A stretch of DNA of 22,578 nt from positions 1-22,578 of the IMG/VR virus record IMGVR_UViG_3300044630_000443. The stretch is one strand, 5' to 3'. A program made the translations under genes and the position numbers. Every line of letters begins with the position of its first letter. Position 1 is the first letter of the stretch. The notes below the pieces were generated by a model. The model made no database searches. It saw only the letters and a program-made list of their open reading frames with translations, and was not told the DNA's origin. Source of the DNA: a virus. This document shows positions 1,546 through 9,336 of this stretch, piece after piece.

Positions 1546-2676
1546 TTATTGCAAAGTTACTCCGTTCTTTTTGATTTCCAAAGCTGGGTCTAGTTTACGC
1601 ATCCTATCTACAATCACTTGACAATATTTAGGGTCAAACTCCATTCCGTAACAAATTCTATTTAATTGATGAGAAGTTACCATTGTAGTTCCAGAACCAA
1701 GATAGGCATCCAAAACTAACTTAACTTCATTCTTTGAATGTCTATCTGCATATTCAAAACACCAAGACATTATTTCAACAGGCTTTTGAGTTGGATGATT
1801 CTTTTCTTCTTTATTTGCTTTAGCCCTTGCATATTCTTTAATTCTTAAAGCATTGTTAAAAGAAGTCCAAGCCATTTCTCCATCTGCTAAACTAAATCCT
1901 CTTTGTCCTTTATCCCAAATTAACCAACCCATAGTTGGTGGCAAATCATCTGTAAAGTAATTACCACCCCAAATAATTTGATTTTCTGTTATTTGGCATA
2001 GGTATTGTAAAACCCCACTATTTGGTTTTGACTTATCCCATTCAGGATTGCCAAAGTTTCTCCATCCGTGTTTATTTGTTTTTTCTGCAAACTCATCACC
2101 TTTTACAAGTTGATTACCATAATCTATTCCGTAAGGTGGGTCAGTTAGTAATAATTCGGGCTTTTTATTTTGTAATAATAAATCCAAATTATTCGTATCC
2201 GTACTATCACCACATAGCAATCTATGTTCGCCTATCTCAAATAAATCTCCTAAGACTATATCGGTTTCAATACCTCCCTCTGGTGCTGCAAAGTTATCTT
2301 CTTGTGCCTCTAATACCTCTGCATCAAAGTTTGGTATATCTAAACCCCATTCGGTTAGTTCTAATGCATCCCAATTATTTGCAAGGTCATCCCAGTCCCA
2401 TTCGCCATAGCCTACATTATCTTTTACAATAAACTCTTTCTTTTTCTCCTCTGATAGATTGTTTGCGTGAATCACAGGCACATCGGTTAGCCCAGCTTCA
2501 AGACAAGCCTTTAGCCTCATATTGCCACCTAAAACCATATTGTTCTCATCAATGACAATAGGTCTAAGTTCTAGCATTTGTGGGAAATCCTGAATAGACT
2601 TTACAAGTTGCTTAAACTTATGGTCCTTAATTAATCTAGGATTGTTAGGATTAGATTTTATTTCTTGTATTAGCAT
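1546..2676 (-). CDS. ParB-like domain fused to DNA adenine/cytosine-N4 methyltransferase
   Basis: A 376-residue fusion. Residues 1 to about 115 form a ParB/Srx-type domain, with NPNNPR at 9-14 and LGGNMRLKA at 49-57. Residues about 140-365 are an amino-methyltransferase: the catalytic motif DPPYG at 179-183, NHPTQKP at 293-299, and the S-adenosylmethionine site DAYLGSGTT at 323-331. The catalytic motif comes before the cofactor motif, which is the beta-class order seen in phage orphan methylases. Likely role: methylation of phage DNA to evade restriction or mark packaging or replication sites; the target sequence cannot be read from this sequence. It overlaps the HNH gene by 7 bases upstream, and its 3' end carries the terminase promoter. 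Confidence 0.9.
   Translation of the reverse strand: MLIQEIKSNPNNPRLIKDHKFKQLVKSIQDFPQMLELRPIVIDENNMVLGGNMRLKACLEAGLTDVPVIHANNLSEEKKKEFIVKDNVGYGEWDWDDLANNWDALELTEWGLDIPNFDAEVLEAQEDNFAAPEGGIETDIVLGDLFEIGEHRLLCGDSTDTNNLDLLLQNKKPELLLTDPPYGIDYGNQLVKGDEFAEKTNKHGWRNFGNPEWDKSKPNSGVLQYLCQITENQIIWGGNYFTDDLPPTMGWLIWDKGQRGFSLADGEMAWTSFNNALRIKEYARAKANKEEKNHPTQKPVEIMSWCFEYADRHSKNEVKLVLDAYLGSGTTMVTSHQLNRICYGMEFDPKYCQVIVDRMRKLDPALEIKKNGVTLQ
1552..1582 (-). promoter_or_regulatory. Bacteroidota-type promoter before the terminase genes
   Basis: On the minus strand TTTG (1582-1579) is followed after exactly 19 bases by TAACTTTG (1559-1552), a full match to the Bacteroidota -33 TTTG / -7 TAnnTTTG consensus. It sits across the last codons of the methyltransferase gene, and transcription would start about 20 bases before the terminase gene ATG at 1524. 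It allows packaging genes to be switched on separately from the replication genes upstream. Confidence 0.75.
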
Positions 2677-3125
2677 AATTGGGATAATTCCATTTTATAG
2701 ATGTTATTAGCTTGTTCTAATGTCTTAAATGTACCTAAATGAACTTGCTTTTTGTTCTTATATATTTTCACAGAATAGGTATTTGCTTTTGTAACTTGAA
2801 CGCAAGGATTATCAGAATTAAAATAATGTAGGACATTTTCTCTGTTATTGCACCATTCTAAGTTATCAATCCTATTATTAGTTTTTACTAAATCTTTATG
2901 ATTAACTAAATCCTTATTCTCAATTTTAGGCAAAAAGGCATTTGCAACTAATCTATGTACTGAATAATCTTTGCCACATAATGATACTCTATGATAGCCA
3001 TTAGTATCTTTAAATGGGCTTAATATTATTGGCTCTTTTCTCCTAAACGACTTTACATTACCAAAATTGCTTATTTTGTATAATCCTATAAAGCCTTGTA
3101 TATCAACATATATTTCTTTTAACAT
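2670..3125 (-). CDS. NUMOD4/HNH endonuclease with AP2-like C-terminus
   Basis: 151 residues with the layout of a free-standing homing-type endonuclease. The N-terminal IQGFIGLYKISNFGNVKSF segment (about 9-27) is a NUMOD4-type DNA-binding motif. HRLVANAFLP (57-66) followed by VNHKDLVKTNNRIDNLEW (74-91) and CNNREN is the HNH_3 core with its catalytic histidine and Asn residues. The C-terminal YSVKIYKNKKQVHLGTFKT stretch (about 117-135) resembles an AP2-type DNA-binding strand set. Its ends overlap both neighbours by 7 bases, so it fits the operon tightly. It may be a selfish gene, or an HNH enzyme taken into packaging or recombination; NinG, another nuclease-like gene, lies just upstream. Confidence 0.88.
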   Translation of the reverse strand: MLKEIYVDIQGFIGLYKISNFGNVKSFRRKEPIILSPFKDTNGYHRVSLCGKDYSVHRLVANAFLPKIENKDLVNHKDLVKTNNRIDNLEWCNNRENVLHYFNSDNPCVQVTKANTYSVKIYKNKKQVHLGTFKTLEQANNIYKMELSQLC

Positions 3126-3621: not shown

Positions 3622-4350
3622 TTAACTTGTACACGAACAATTAAAAGCTGGATTTAAATCCGAAAGGTCTTGCCCTTTGAATAAATCGTTTTGAGCATAA
3701 TTTAGCATTTGCTTGTAGGTTGTATCTTGGAAATATGTATGCCCATTACCTTTTAATTTGCTTAATTCTTCATCTTCTATCCATTCGTTTGCTAGTTCTG
3801 GGTATGACCTTAAAATATTAATTATTGCATTTTTACCTTTAAGAAAGCATAAAGTACAATTACCAAGAATTGCTGGTATTTCTAATGTGTAAGGTTTTTT
3901 ACTCCAATAATCATTTACTTGTGCCTTATCTATTCCAGCTTCATATAAAGGGAATCTTGGGTGTATATAGGCTTGTCGTTTCTCATATCCTTTTACTCTG
4001 CGTTCCTCATCTGCCCTAAACCCTACTAGCCATTCATAGTTTTGTTTGCCATAGTTTGCTCTAAGATATCTTTTAGCAGTCTTAATCTTAAGTTCAATAG
4101 TGCATTCTCTTTTAACTCTATTAGGTATTAATTTCCATTTTTTATGTTCTAACATTCCTCTAAAACCACCTTCGTAACTAATTCTAATAATTGGAATATT
4201 CTCGTGTGCCTCAAAGTCATTAATAAACTTATATGTTTTTGGATGCTCTCTTTTAGTATCAGCAAATATTACTAAGTCTCCTTTACGATAATTTAAAATT
4301 GTCATCAAAGCACTTGTTTTCCCCCCACTAAAGTTTATTACTCTTATCAT
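3622..4350 (-). CDS. PAPS reductase / DndC-like PP-loop protein
   Basis: 242 residues of the adenine-nucleotide alpha-hydrolase superfamily. The PP-loop SGGKTSA is at residues 8-14 and ADTKREHP, the family's second strand, at 30-37. Cysteines occur at C83 (RECTIELKIK), C165 and C168 (GNCTLCFLKGK), and C238/C240 at the very end; this could hold an iron-sulfur cluster, as in some PAPS/APS reductases and in DndC. Phage copies are often labelled phosphoadenosine phosphosulfate reductase, but the substrate is unproven. A role in sulfur-containing DNA modification, another nucleotide modification or nucleotide-sulfate metabolism is possible. Only this one gene is present; no other Dnd or 7-deazaguanine pathway gene is seen here. 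Confidence 0.82.
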   Translation of the reverse strand: MIRVINFSGGKTSALMTILNYRKGDLVIFADTKREHPKTYKFINDFEAHENIPIIRISYEGGFRGMLEHKKWKLIPNRVKRECTIELKIKTAKRYLRANYGKQNYEWLVGFRADEERRVKGYEKRQAYIHPRFPLYEAGIDKAQVNDYWSKKPYTLEIPAILGNCTLCFLKGKNAIINILRSYPELANEWIEDEELSKLKGNGHTYFQDTTYKQMLNYAQNDLFKGQDLSDLNPAFNCSCTS

Positions 4351-4744: not shown

Positions 4745-5442
4745 AATTCGTTGTCGTAATAAAGTTTAAGGGAATATTTTTTACATTGTTGTATCATAGT
4801 TTCCTCATCTACTAACATATCCTCTGGCTTCTTAGCTTGTGCTAAATGATAGGCTTTTACTTTAGATTTTATGTACTCAGCTTTATCAGGGCTTATCTTT
4901 AGCAGCTTTCTTTTCCACAGGTAATCAAAGCATTGATAGTTTAGGAATCTCCAGTCTTTCTTAGATGTTTTCCAATACTCGGCTTCCTCTCTCATTACTT
5001 GCTCTTCATCTACTTGCATTTCTATTTGTTTAGGTTGTTCTGGTTCTATTTTGTTTCTTACTTGTACTGCTATCTTCTTATAGGCATTCATTACCTCCCC
5101 AATTAACTTAGGACTAAAGTTTATATGATTGCAAATAGTAAACTTATCCTCTGCAAACATCTTAAATGCTACTCCTAGTTCTTTTAGTTTGTATTGTCCG
5201 TAAGATTCTATTGTAAAAGAAACGCATAGATTAAATATTTGATTTGTTGGCACTTGCATACCACTCAAAGCAATACAAGTCTTTAAATGCTCTGTTACTT
5301 CTATCCTTGAGCATTTGCCTATGTGCATCGATTCCATAGCCTTATAAACCTTTATTTCATCCTTATCCAAGATTTTTAAGTCGTTCCCATTCAAGTTCTG
5401 CGTAGCTAAGTTTTGTACTAATAGTTCGTTCAATAATTTCAT
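4741..5442 (-). CDS. Protein downstream of the replication protein, unknown; helicase-loader position
   Basis: 233 residues, not recognised. The N-terminal half is mixed and may be globular (cysteines in KTCIALSG and IFNLCVS). Residues about 130-150 are a Glu/Gln-rich linker (EPEQPKQIEMQVDEEQVMREE) split between two helical parts, and the C-terminal part, DWRFLNYQCFDYLWKRKLLK, is aromatic and basic. It lies directly after the DUF4373-type replication gene, where phages often place a helicase loader or second replication factor. The ATG at 5442 overlaps the upstream gene by 80 bases; the next in-frame ATG at 5337, preceded by purine-rich sequence, would remove the overlap, so the true start is uncertain. 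Confidence 0.7.
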   Translation of the reverse strand: MKLLNELLVQNLATQNLNGNDLKILDKDEIKVYKAMESMHIGKCSRIEVTEHLKTCIALSGMQVPTNQIFNLCVSFTIESYGQYKLKELGVAFKMFAEDKFTICNHINFSPKLIGEVMNAYKKIAVQVRNKIEPEQPKQIEMQVDEEQVMREEAEYWKTSKKDWRFLNYQCFDYLWKRKLLKISPDKAEYIKSKVKAYHLAQAKKPEDMLVDEETMIQQCKKYSLKLYYDNEL

Positions 5443-6073
5443 CGTTAAAAGATTTACTGTTTAGATAGGTTGTAGGATGTTTACGGAATTGTTTATCAGG
5501 GGTTGATTGAGCATATACTGGTGCGTGTTGTAAAGCTAAAGCCTTTTCCTCTTGATTTAAAGTTTTCCAAGCCTTTTCTGCTTTATCCCTAGATTTCTTA
5601 TAATCGTATAAATCCCAAAATTCCTCAAATTGCTCATCTATTATATTTACTTTATTTACTTTCTTTTCATTTATTTCTTTTCCTTTCCTTTCCTTTATAG
5701 CATTGCCTTCGCATTGCGATTGCATTGCGTTCGCATTAGTCCATCTCTTATGTGCTGATTCTCTAGCCTTTACACTTTTAGAATCTCTTTCATCTATTCT
5801 TTTTTGCACTGATAAGCTACCAAAATGCTCTGCATCAAAAACAAATAAATCAAAATCGTTTATTACACTTGTAACAATAGAAACATCTATTCTGTAATCA
5901 TAAGCAATGCCTTCGTAATCCGTTCGCAATGCGTTCGCATTATTGTATAAATCTTCAATAATGGACCAAAATAAACCATAGCCTAATAATCCGTGTTTCC
6001 TTATTAGAAACTTAATCTTTTCATCATTACGGCTATTGTAGTCGTGGGAGAAATAGAATGTATCTTTTGACAT
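5363..6073 (-). CDS. DUF4373-type phage replication protein
   Basis: 236 residues. Residues 1 to about 90 match the DUF4373 (Lin1244/Lin1753-like) N-terminal domain: FYFSHDYNSRND at 6-17, then FLIRKHGLLGYGLFWSIIED. This domain is a winged-helix-like module common in phage replication-initiation proteins. Residues about 105-150 are a polar, lysine-rich linker (KERKGKEINEKKVNK). The C-terminal part, FEEFWDLYDYKKSRDKAEKAW to PTTYLNSKSF, resembles the C-terminus of DnaD/lambda-O-type proteins. Two arrays of 11-bp DNA repeats lie inside the gene at 5904-5941 and 5700-5737, with an A-rich stretch after the second, so the gene may contain the origin it acts on. A structured leader precedes the ATG. 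Confidence 0.85.
   Translation of the reverse strand: MSKDTFYFSHDYNSRNDEKIKFLIRKHGLLGYGLFWSIIEDLYNNANALRTDYEGIAYDYRIDVSIVTSVINDFDLFVFDAEHFGSLSVQKRIDERDSKSVKARESAHKRWTNANAMQSQCEGNAIKERKGKEINEKKVNKVNIIDEQFEEFWDLYDYKKSRDKAEKAWKTLNQEEKALALQHAPVYAQSTPDKQFRKHPTTYLNSKSFNDEIIERTISTKLSYAELEWERLKNLG
5700..5737 (-). repeat. 11-bp iteron array A in the replication gene
   Basis: Reading the minus strand from 5737: AATGCGAACGC, AATGCAATCGC, AATGCGAAGGC, then AATGC. That is three and a half direct repeats with an 11-base period. As 11 is not a multiple of three, successive units encode different residues (NANAMQSQCEGNA), which argues for selection or duplication at the DNA level. Immediately downstream (5699-5640) the strand is almost only A, G and T, strongly A-rich. 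Confidence 0.75.
5904..5941 (-). repeat. 11-bp iteron array B in the replication gene
   Basis: Reading the minus strand from 5941: AATGCGAACGC, ATTGCGAACGG, ATTACGAAGGC, then ATTGC. Same 11-base period and same unit order as array A; the first units of both arrays are identical and the third units share CGAAGGC. It lies 204 bp from array A, inside the DUF4373 domain coding region (protein NNANALRTDYEGIA). Confidence 0.7.
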
Positions 6074-6980: not shown

Positions 6981-7203
6981 AGTTTTCGTATTCTTCAGTC
7001 CAGTCATTCATTCTTGAGAATGGCTTAGGCTGGGTTAATAATGGGGTTGATGGGTAATGTTTAGTCTTATATTCCTTTAAGTTTTGTCTTGCCTTTTTAA
7101 GTTCTTGATAGGTTTCTTTTACCCAAAACTTATGACAGGCACTAGATTTCCATTCCCAATAAGAAACCAAGTCTCTTAGTTTTATTAGTTTTTGGTCAAT
7201 CAT
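6973..7203 (-). CDS. Small protein, unknown
   Basis: 76 residues with a basic, aromatic N-terminal half (YWEWKSSACHKFWVKETYQE) predicted as helical, then a Pro-rich segment (PSTPLLTQPKPF) and an acidic C-terminus. It overlaps the end of the ERF gene by 4 bases, so it is probably co-translated with the annealing protein and could be a partner, but no family is recognised. Confidence 0.6.
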   Translation of the reverse strand: MIDQKLIKLRDLVSYWEWKSSACHKFWVKETYQELKKARQNLKEYKTKHYPSTPLLTQPKPFSRMNDWTEEYENYE

Positions 7204-7754
7204 AATTTAGATTTTTTACTTGTAAATAATGCAGTAATTCCTTCATTCATTAAATCCTTATTTAATCCGTGTAGCTTAGTTAATTCTGCAACTGATTCGC
7301 ACATATCAATAGCTAATGTTAAATCTAGTATTGACTTATGTTTCTTAATAAATACAGATGCAGCTTTTTCTCCAGAGGCATCGGTATCTTTATCAGTTAC
7401 TAAGCCTAAGGCAGCAGATAGGGCATATCTCCTGTAATAGGTTATCCCACTTCCGAAAGATTGATACTCGTTCATACCCCTAAGAGTAATTTGTGGGATC
7501 GTTGCATTAGACTCAATTGCCTCTCCACTAATAGTGTGAAAGATAATTGTCTTTAGTCCATCCTCAATAAGAAGCTGCGTAAATCCTAGATTATGTTTCT
7601 TAAGCAAAGGATTTATTACTTCAAGAATTGTAGGGAAGTCTGCATAAGTGTAATTATGCCCAGTTGTTCCCTTGTGTATTACAGGGCATTCTTGTTGAAA
7701 GGATGCTAAAGCCTTGTAAATGTTGATAAGTGAGTTTGTTTGTAAGTTAATCAT
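7200..7754 (-). CDS. erf: ERF-family single-strand annealing protein
   Basis: 184 residues of the ERF family of phage recombinases, which pair complementary single strands in genome circularisation and RecA-independent recombination. Family marks: the N-terminal helix IYKALASFQQECP, then YTYADFPTILEVINPLLKKHNLGF (Y37 on), and the hallmark GSGITYYRRYALSAALGLVTDKDTDA segment at about 104-129. The length is close to the family core without a long C-terminal extension. No partner exonuclease is seen in the window; NinG and the SSB-tail protein are the nearby helpers. Confidence 0.92.
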   Translation of the reverse strand: MINLQTNSLINIYKALASFQQECPVIHKGTTGHNYTYADFPTILEVINPLLKKHNLGFTQLLIEDGLKTIIFHTISGEAIESNATIPQITLRGMNEYQSFGSGITYYRRYALSAALGLVTDKDTDASGEKAASVFIKKHKSILDLTLAIDMCESVAELTKLHGLNKDLMNEGITALFTSKKSKL

Positions 7755-7799: not shown

Positions 7800-8156
7800 T
7801 TAATAAGTCAAATTATTTATAATCTTTTTTATTTCAGTTAATTCATCGGAAATATCAGTATCGTACTTAAGTGTTAAAGTATCGTTAATAATTTTAATAG
7901 AGTGCAAAATCGTTGAATGATCTCTATTAAATATCCTACCAATAGCACTTAATTTAAAGTCTGTCTCAGTCCTGATAATATAGATAGATATAAACCTAGC
8001 TTTTACTATTTCCCTCTTACGGCTCTTGCCTTTTACTTGATCCTGAGTTAAAGAATAGTATTTGCATATTTCCTTAATTATATTATCTACATAATTAATC
8101 TTTTCCTTCATCGCTTTTTGCCTTTCTCTTAGGCTTGGCATTGACCAGTAGTTCAT
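7800..8156 (-). CDS. Stand-alone DnaA domain IV-like DNA-binding protein
   Basis: 118 residues that match the C-terminal, DnaA-box-binding domain of DnaA with no ATPase part. The basic segment GKSRKREIVKARFISIYIIR (43-62) corresponds to the arginine-containing loop and helix, and the signature RDHSTILHSIK (78-88) matches DnaA's DHTTVLH recognition motif. It could bind the phage origin or compete with host DnaA at host boxes. The ATG at 8156 overlaps the upstream coiled-coil gene by 62 bases; internal ATGs at 8141 and 8111 keep the whole domain and reduce the overlap to 47 and 17 bases, so the start is uncertain. No clear TTATNCACA box was found. Confidence 0.85.
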   Translation of the reverse strand: MNYWSMPSLRERQKAMKEKINYVDNIIKEICKYYSLTQDQVKGKSRKREIVKARFISIYIIRTETDFKLSAIGRIFNRDHSTILHSIKIINDTLTLKYDTDISDELTEIKKIINNLTY

Positions 8157-8265
8157 TGATTTCTAATTTAAGTTTTCTAATTTGGTTTCTAAGCATCTCA
8201 TTCTCTACCTCTAAAATGTAGTTTTCTCGTAATAATTGGGATTTGCTATTGTCTATGTATGTCAT
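8095..8265 (-). CDS. 56-residue coiled-coil protein
   Basis: Translates as MTYIDNSKSQLLRENYILEV followed by heptad-like ENEMLRNQIRKLKLEINELL and a basic tail (AKPKRKAKSDEGKD). The a/d pattern of L, V and I suggests a parallel coiled coil like a leucine zipper. It lies between the 101-residue gene and the DnaA-domain gene, whose start overlaps its end. It may dimerise or attach to the DnaA-like protein, which is inference. Confidence 0.6.
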   Translation of the reverse strand: MTYIDNSKSQLLRENYILEVENEMLRNQIRKLKLEINELLVNAKPKRKAKSDEGKD

Positions 8266-8266
8266 A

Positions 8267-8572
8267 TTAAAAGTGTAAAAGGTTTATAGGTAACATAAAA
8301 TCTTCGGTAATCTCATAAAGGTCCAGTATCAAGAAGTGATAAGACTTTAAGATTCTCTTTTGTACTTGGTTCATTCTAGCAATCTTAATAAGGTAGTCAT
8401 CCTCGTACTTGTTCATTAGCTTGATAGGATTGTCCCAAGTAGCACCTCTCCACTTTAAAAGGTCTGATTCAATGCTAGATTGTCTTGATTGTGCCTTCTT
8501 TAATAGTTCTAGTAGGCAAGTTGCTCTCTGGTGAAGTTTTAGTTGTTTTCCTTGATAGATTAATGGTTGCAT
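8267..8572 (-). CDS. Helical protein, unknown
   Basis: 101 residues, predicted mostly helical with a basic N-terminal half (KQLKLHQRATCLLELLKKAQSR). Nothing recognised. The gene starts 5 bases after the RHH gene and ends 1 base before the coiled-coil gene, so it is part of the early operon. Confidence 0.6.
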   Translation of the reverse strand: MQPLIYQGKQLKLHQRATCLLELLKKAQSRQSSIESDLLKWRGATWDNPIKLMNKYEDDYLIKIARMNQVQKRILKSYHFLILDLYEITEDFMLPINLLHF

Positions 8573-8576
8573 TGGT

Positions 8577-8723
8577 TTAGTTTTTAGATTCGTAATATTT
8601 TTGTACGATTATTGATACTAATTTACTTGGTGCTAAATACATCTTTTTAGCTTCGGCATCTACTTTTTTCTTGATTGATTCTGGCAGTCGGATGCAGACT
8701 ACTTCTTTTTTTTCTACTTTCAT
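8577..8723 (-). CDS. 48-residue ribbon-helix-helix DNA-binding protein
   Basis: Residues 7-20 (EVVCIRLPESIKKK) and the following helices (VDAEAKKMYLAPSKLVSIIV, then QKYYESK) match the Arc/CopG ribbon-helix-helix fold: an alternating strand that enters the major groove, then helix A and helix B with the usual S-x-L-V-x-x-I-V pattern. Such proteins act as dimers on direct or inverted operator repeats and usually control their own operon. It lies third in an operon whose promoter has two TTATCAGTC repeats just upstream, so it is the best candidate repressor in the window. Confidence 0.8.
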   Translation of the reverse strand: MKVEKKEVVCIRLPESIKKKVDAEAKKMYLAPSKLVSIIVQKYYESKN

Positions 8724-9001: not shown

Positions 9002-9021
9002 ACTAATTTGGTTTGTTTCAA

Positions 9022-9051
9022 CAAAGATACAAACAATTACAATACAAACAA
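9022..9051 (-). promoter_or_regulatory. Early promoter
   Basis: TATCTTTG (9029-9022) matches TAnnTTTG, with TTG (9051-9049) exactly 19 bases upstream. The start would fall near 9015, about 14 bases before the ATG at 9001. It drives the leftward replication and recombination operon. Confidence 0.8.
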
Positions 9052-9071
9052 TAAATTATTTAAATTTCTTT

Positions 9072-9114
9072 TTATCAGTCTAAAATGAGCCTATTATCAG
9101 TCATTTACGGCTCA
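9072..9114. promoter_or_regulatory. Operator-like repeats upstream of the early promoter
   Basis: TTATCAGTC occurs twice (9072-9080 and 9094-9102), 22 bases apart start to start, or about two helical turns. Overlapping them is an inverted pair TGAGCC (9086-9091) / GGCTCA (9109-9114). They lie 21-63 bases upstream of the -33 element at 9049-9051, where a regulator could bind. The ribbon-helix-helix protein is the natural candidate. Confidence 0.5.
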
Positions 9115-9200
9115 AAGTTGCCTTATTAGGTAACTTTTATGATTGATAAAGTTTACTATTAGAGAACTTTGTAACCAAATTGGGAACATTGTACAATGTT
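9114..9200. promoter_or_regulatory. Cluster of dyads including a perfect 16-bp palindrome
   Basis: The inverted pair AAAGTT/AACTTT occurs twice: 9114-9119 with 9132-9137, and 9148-9153 with 9165-9170, spacers 12 and 11. AACATTGTACAATGTT at 9185-9200 is a perfect 16-bp palindrome. A 12-bp perfect palindrome, AAGTTATAACTT, follows at 9314-9325. Together they make a gene-free, dyad-rich stretch between terminators and early promoter, probably a control region or replication-related site. No open frame longer than about 40 codons is believable. Confidence 0.45.
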
Positions 9201-9336
9201 TTAGGTACAATATGTAAAATGTTGTAATGTGATTAGGGCAAATATGCTACTGATTTATAGGTATTTGTAACAAAATATGTTAAATGTTAGTAGTAGTACT
9301 ACGCAAATAAGTAAAGTTATAACTTGACTAAAGGGC

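Follow-up and report, generated by a model that had tools for sequence, protein, structure and literature searches.

The gene at positions 7800 to 8156 raises the question of why a phage would encode domain IV of DnaA by itself, and whether such a protein would serve the phage's own origin of replication or act against that of the host. The window analysed, meaning the whole stretch of DNA, is a linear IMG/VR virus record of 22,578 bases (IMGVR_UViG_3300044630_000443). Its host probably belongs to the Bacteroidota, as suggested by a tail-region protein for which all eight phage matches were found in Cellulophaga phages (24-26% identity) and by the DnaA-like protein itself, which possesses a loop of the Bacteroidota DnaA type (SRKREIV-AR). 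This protein was found to share 36-43% identity with the seven best-scoring host DnaAs and 25% with E. coli domain IV, the latter figure being derived from a Foldseek alignment and thus by a different method.

The initial annotation had described the product as DnaA domain IV only, and both its extent and its nature were borne out. The ORF runs from 8156 to 7800 on the minus strand and encodes a protein of 118 amino acids (here called DnaA-IV), with the plus strand reading of the same stretch being interrupted by stop codons. Residues 23-89 were found to match model positions 1-68 of 69 of Bac_DnaA_C (PF08299, E 7e-23), placing it in this family over the whole domain with a score of 80.9 bits, above the cut-off of 31.5. 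Full-length DnaA models of NCBIfam matched at their C-terminal ends alone (TIGR00362, positions 336-436 of 437), the score of 80.8 bits falling far below the 343.9 bits of the full-length DnaA equivalog (TIGR00362, NF001154), and the AAA+ part is therefore absent from DnaA-IV. Six of seven matches among solved sequences were DnaA chains (best 3pvp, E 2e-9; 1j1v, E 1.7e-7), with the seventh being a TAL-effector repeat protein in which no stretch passed alone. An AlphaFold2 model built from 29 sequences (pLDDT 81.7) superposed on 3pvp_B with a TM score of 0.93 (target length) and an rmsd of 1.1, and on 1j1v with a TM score of 0.88, identifying the fold of the model as that of DnaA domain IV. DnaA-IV very probably adopts this fold and binds DNA, the binding being judged from sequence.

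Nine near relatives were identified at 82-97% identity. Among the window and the eight relatives with the whole gene, dN/dS was 0.03-0.18 in 35 of 36 pairs, the remaining pair having zero synonymous changes and so standing outside this range. The ORF is thus not a chance one, and its product is under purifying selection. An N-terminal motif is also conserved (YWSMPS in the window, YWxxPS in general), with W4 and P7 present in each of the 47 distinct sequences in which the N-terminus is covered.

The residues expected to contact DNA were compared by alignment with 1j1v in E. coli numbering, taking the first residue of 1j1v to be 374, which we assume and which places R46 on Arg399. The DHSTILH signature occupies residues 79-85 and the basic loop KSRKRE residues 43-48, such that R46, R54, F55, R78, D79, H80, S81 and T82 correspond to R399, R407, Q408, R432, D433, H434, T435 and T436. 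In DnaA, Arg399 enters the minor groove and the helix of residues 434-451 the major groove, with R399A and T435M being defective, according to a review (PMC5742627). R46, R54, D79, H80 and T82 were invariant in 11 phage proteins, three from this group and eight from distant phages. Across the 29 sequences, R54 was present in all and R46 in at least 90%, a set that is uninformative on DHxTILH as that motif was used to select most of its rows. Within the phage family, 50 distinct members were compared, one of them truncated and without some positions. The equivalents of R399 and R407 were each retained in 49 of 49 and that of H434 in 50 of 50, position 79 being D in 44 and N in six (a D433N allele), position 81 (T435) being T in 41 of 50 and S in nine, and position 82 (T436) being T in 30 of 50 and S in 20 (a T436S allele). 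The base-reading residues (equivalents of R399, R407, H434 and T435/T436) are therefore kept in DnaA-IV. Conservation of the signature and basic loop, as first proposed, was thus upheld, with R46, R54 and H80 unvarying in the family and R46 and R54 near-constant in distant phages; the loss of signature arginine or histidine residues in relatives, which had been named as the finding that would count against this proposal, was not seen. As the R399, R407 and H434 equivalents do not vary, DNA binding by DnaA-IV is likely.

A different picture was obtained for the Q408 position, which was F in 48 of 49 family members and Y in one, versus Q in 37 of 38 distinct, mostly Bacteroidota, DnaAs. These 38 sequences had been preselected for RDH[ASTG]T[IV] and are therefore informative for this position only. 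The sole exception, a reading frame of 148 amino acids in L081, a contig of a bacterial genome, has a phage-like F and may be a prophage copy. With Q408 replaced by F across the family, the target site of DnaA-IV may differ from that of DnaA, and this replacement together with the D433N and T436S alleles suggests that DnaA-IV has a site of its own.

The genomic neighbourhood was then considered. In order of transcription, a protein of 101 amino acids without assigned function (8267-8572, minus strand) is followed by a zipper-like coiled-coil protein of 56 amino acids (8095-8265, minus strand; heptads recognised by eye), DnaA-IV, an ERF single-strand annealing protein directly downstream (7200-7754, minus strand; PF04404, E 9e-26; phrog_2324), small genes, an HTH_39 gene and a lambda-O-like replication initiator (5363-6073, minus strand; phrog_2562 and phrog_270, replication initiation protein). 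The coiled-coil protein and ERF that the initial annotation had placed nearby are thus present. The zipper-like and DnaA-IV genes are in different frames, the 3' end of the former extending 62 bp into the latter, and the zipper-like product scored 15.3 bits against the YabA model of Pfam, for which the cut-off is 30. Look-alikes of the 101-aa protein were seen by eye upstream in four loci (L147, L151, L171 and L172).

Using ERF as bait, the best 80 of 151 viral loci were inspected, and DnaA-IV was found directly upstream of ERF in 66. In two of the other 14, the DNA upstream amounts to 0-75 bp, and the remaining 12 match ERF partly, three of them with less than 620 bp upstream. Every one of the 66 loci that combine adequate upstream DNA with an ERF matching well (65-99% identity) has DnaA-IV immediately upstream of ERF, a set that comprises many close relatives and one ERF cut by the contig end (L173). 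The adjacency may be mere gene order of one phage lineage. In 59 of the 66 loci the zipper-like ORF runs, in a different frame, over the start of DnaA-IV; it was not found in three whose DNA ends immediately upstream. It is absent from a further three (L147, L171 and L172), and therefore is not always needed. In L151 it is in frame with DnaA-IV, giving a single protein of 145 amino acids (approximately 565 to 59 bp upstream of the ERF at 6001); this fusion, seen on a single contig, could be real or the result of a frameshift error.

Several further genes were noted. Beyond the initiator lie genes with PAPS-reductase (3622-4350), NinG, NUMOD4-HNH (2670-3125) and ParB_N-methylase (1546-2676) features, the three with coordinates being on the minus strand. 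The PAPS-reductase-like gene lies among the early genes, and the homing-type endonuclease gene is situated between those of NinG and the methylase. The latter encodes an N6/N4 DNA methylase, part of which resembles the ParB N-terminal domain and scored just under the Pfam cut-off (22.6 versus 26.3 bits). A 48-aa ORF (8577-8723, minus strand) has by eye the look of a ribbon-helix-helix regulator, with no Pfam match. Two related loci (L002 from 9979 and L004 from 9982 onward) possess, between the HTH_39 and initiator genes, what appears by eye to be a cytosine DNA methylase gene, which is absent from the window.

Several features point to a role on the phage's own side, namely that the initiator is separate, that ERF is a constant neighbour, that a zipper-like partner is encoded and that the contact residues are shifted. 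DnaA-IV is best explained as a sequence-specific DNA-binding accessory, coupled to the zipper-like protein, of a lambda-type replication and recombination module, a reading we hold tentatively and at slightly less than an even chance. DnaA-IV would bind a DnaA-box-like site on phage DNA, probably shifted from the canonical box; the 56-aa protein would probably pair two copies of it, and the bound protein would assist either the O-like initiator or the adjacent ERF. A precedent that gives a mechanism for this is found in lambda, where DnaA-box-like sites were footprinted downstream of pO and binding of host DnaA near ori-lambda stimulates transcriptional activation of the origin (PMC3985674). 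By analogy, both systems would have DNA binding of the DnaA type next to an O-type initiator whose gene contains the iterons, the difference being that the host supplies DnaA to lambda, whereas here the phage encodes the reader domain only. Counted against the accessory role are the lack of an enriched 8-10-mer site and of canonical box enrichment (see below), the 12 loci with a partly matching ERF and no DnaA-IV, and the three loci missing the zipper-like ORF. A narrower version, in which a two-subunit, zipper-paired reader of a shifted DnaA box, encoded by the overlapping genes, does at a lambda-type origin what host DnaA does for lambda and passes single strands to ERF, is a speculative form that we consider improbable.

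An alternative to the accessory role is that DnaA-IV is directed at the host, acting as a decoy that sits on the DnaA boxes of oriC and of the dnaA promoter. Being unable to form oligomers or to open DNA, it would block or disturb initiation in the host at an early stage of infection. The kept DNA-contact residues, the Bacteroidota-type loop with its resemblance to host DnaAs, and the location of the gene, surrounded by early-type genes and with a separate initiator alongside, are in keeping with this. So is the absence of TTATNCACA from the window. The initial annotation had seen no canonical DnaA box; this almost holds, as no TTATNCACA was found in the window and one TTTTCCACA occurs at 4911, the pattern TTWTNCACA being present once in the window. 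With up to one mismatch permitted, 58 sites were counted against 79 expected. In eight loci of this phage group, eight exact sites were seen against 17.3, 12.7 and 8.2 expected under order 1, 2 and 3 models, with 22% of 300 permuted motifs being as low as the DnaA box count. Depletion of boxes as a sign of host targeting was consequently rejected, since the deficit disappears under the tetranucleotide model (8 versus 8.2) and no avoidance is evident. Furthermore, the replacement of Q408 by F throughout the family and the alleles D433N and T436S would not be expected of a protein reading ordinary host DnaA boxes, and weaken this explanation. A host-directed decoy is possible but rather unlikely.

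The search for a site on phage DNA gave the following. Canonical boxes were not enriched in the eight loci of this group, and no clustering of three boxes was found in 21 other loci for which positions were inspected, the closest pairs being 81 bp (L023), 215 bp (L015) and 278 bp (L046) apart. In motif discovery with 8-10-mers, the iteron core and gene-start contexts stood out most, and no box-like word stood out. The word TTATCCACA occurred six times in 26 IMG loci against 1.8 expected, with two copies in L050, 0.9 kb apart, and two in L052, 4.2 kb apart. A near-box pair at 7721 and 7798 (TTATCAACA and TTATTAACA) is identical in nine of nine relatives; the surrounding stretch is just as conserved, and the pair was therefore dismissed as evidence for a site. 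DnaA sites in alphaproteobacterial phage genomes are reported to be without positional asymmetry (PMC9437464).

DnaA doubles as a transcription factor, and DnaA-IV could correspondingly be a transcription regulator only, controlling the early operon or other phage genes via one or a few sites with no direct part in replication. A well-conserved non-coding leader lies upstream of the operon (9005-9195, minus strand; 9005-9210 when the inverted repeats are considered) and contains the best-conserved 24-base stretch of the early region (9022-9045), inverted repeats and a promoter-like sequence, TTG...TATCTTTG, which we take to resemble the Bacteroidota-type promoter motif. The repeats (AAAGTTACC-TAATAA-GGCAACTTT and AACATTGTACAATGTT, the second not being present in all relatives) are candidate operators of another regulator and suit a different repressor rather than being DnaA boxes, no exact one of which was found in the leader. 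Upstream of the domain IV genes of 35 loci, three boxes were found within 300 bp against 0.97 expected and two within 150 bp against 0.48, with the shorter core WTNCACA occurring nine times within 150 bp against 4.8 expected. Two of the three boxes within 300 bp belong to the distant locus L023, where two relaxed boxes precede the gene by 31 and 112 bp. The excess is slight and mostly due to one locus, and a purely regulatory role is considered unlikely.

The possibility that DnaA-IV is itself the phage initiator, with the iterons or other repeats as its origin, was also weighed. A tblastn search with DnaA-IV matched 83 phage records, among which those that are unannotated may include bacterial DNA; all were below 60% identity, and several of the 60 listed are annotated as DnaA or replication initiator. 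In pelagiphage HTVC204P, the homologue is the sole replication-annotated gene in the 28.8 of 34.1 kb inspected. Iteron arrays had been reported about 2 kb away and suspected as the site of DnaA-IV. They are indeed present, as 11-mers at 5700-5737 (GCATTGCGTTC, 3.5 copies) and 5904-5939 (GCAATGCGTTC, 3.3 copies), but within the O-like initiator gene, and the suspicion was not supported, as the arrays go with the N-terminal type of the initiator. This N-terminal part is swappable, being Lin1244_N in the window (PF14297, E 3e-9) and in L006, where iterons are also present. The iteron core words are absent from the initiator genes of L002, L004, L005 and L009, which have other N-termini on a related C-terminus (DUF1376 below cut-off in L002 and L009, no match in L005) and for which other short repeats, mostly weak, were reported. 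Labelling DnaA-IV alleles by recognition motif (our T1 and T2) and initiators by type (I1, I2 and I3), T1 and T2 were each found with all three types, in 9 and 41 loci, respectively; some of these loci are two pieces of one contig, the distinct sequence pairs numbering 5 and 18. None of the T3-T5 loci had an initiator recognised by the C-terminal pattern. Initiator type and iterons are thus swapped independently of the DnaA-IV allele, and the iterons follow the initiator, which together with the missing core in the four loci disfavours them as DnaA-IV sites. DnaA-IV thus does not qualify as an initiator of the lambda-O type here, as the iterons lie in, and change with, gene 5363-6073. Tandem repeats (8-30 bp, at least 2.5 copies) were found in or within 400 bp of only two of 35 domain IV genes, and an initiator role for DnaA-IV is regarded as highly improbable. 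Regulation of late genes, considered on grounds of position, was dropped because the DnaA-IV gene heads the early operon. In the search for defence genes, one weak PADLOC match (PDC-M38B, E 0.002) was judged to be chance.

Stand-alone DnaA-IV proteins of phages are a kind already on record. Compared with DnaA domain IV (PF08299; PDB 1J1V, 3PVP), the protein described here has the same fold and contacts equivalent to R399, R407, D433, H434 and T436. Unlike DnaA, it lacks domains I-III and possesses the YWxxPS motif, F at the Q408 position and an overlapping zipper-like gene. Small domain IV proteins also make up phrog_16091, phrog_27829 and phrog_30669, and are exemplified by gene 62 of Sulfitobacter phage phiGT1, annotated as 'DnaA C-terminal domain IV', with others in pelagiphages and Flavobacterium phages. 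A 'DnaA', which may or may not consist of domain IV alone, has been reported in Polaribacter phages (PMC4615864) and in all HTVC010P-type phages (PMC6811365). No laboratory test of a stand-alone phage DnaA-IV protein was found among the open-licence PMC papers listed. Nine annotated phage loci among the 83 records were opened. ERF, RecT or an annealing protein was identified within approximately 6 kb of the domain IV gene in six (L011, L013, L015, L017, L018 and L019), with none annotated in the stretch inspected of L012, L014 and L016; the nine differ from the window in that an annotated ERF directly adjoins the domain IV gene in none. Among 146 neighbouring ORFs of 16 other domain IV loci, the commonest named families (3-4 members each, among 25 of 186 families listed) were primosomal proteins, helicases, DNA methylases, ParB-like proteins and small terminase subunits, with nucleases also among those named. 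Such proteins are found in phages infecting many hosts and frequently bear the label 'DnaA' or 'replication initiator'. The family studied here, in which a reader of conserved contacts has a zipper-like partner, ERF as its constant neighbour and an initiator that is separate and swappable, offers a clean test case that would show whether phages use such readers for their own origin or against that of the host.

When viral DNA was searched with a pattern encoding R-DH[ST]TILH in AT-rich codons only, 42 loci were retrieved, including two on contigs of this group. The reading frames of the 35 with a closed 5' end spanned at most 316 codons between stops, none reaching full DnaA length, and seven were open at the 5' end. 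In contrast, 245 of 247 bacterial genomes (phylum of uncultured Flavobacterium) gave a match, 15 of them twice, with open frames of 466-593 amino acids among the matches listed; no relative of the window DnaA-IV was found in bacterial genome contigs scanned with it (0 of 314 candidate stretches). The four longest viral readings (263-300 amino acids from the first ATG, one being 5'-open) contained Bac_DnaA_C and no AAA+ domain. One viral protein of 300 amino acids (L053, 3655-4554, minus strand) was found to contain two Bac_DnaA_C stretches (142 bits), making it a tandem double reader.
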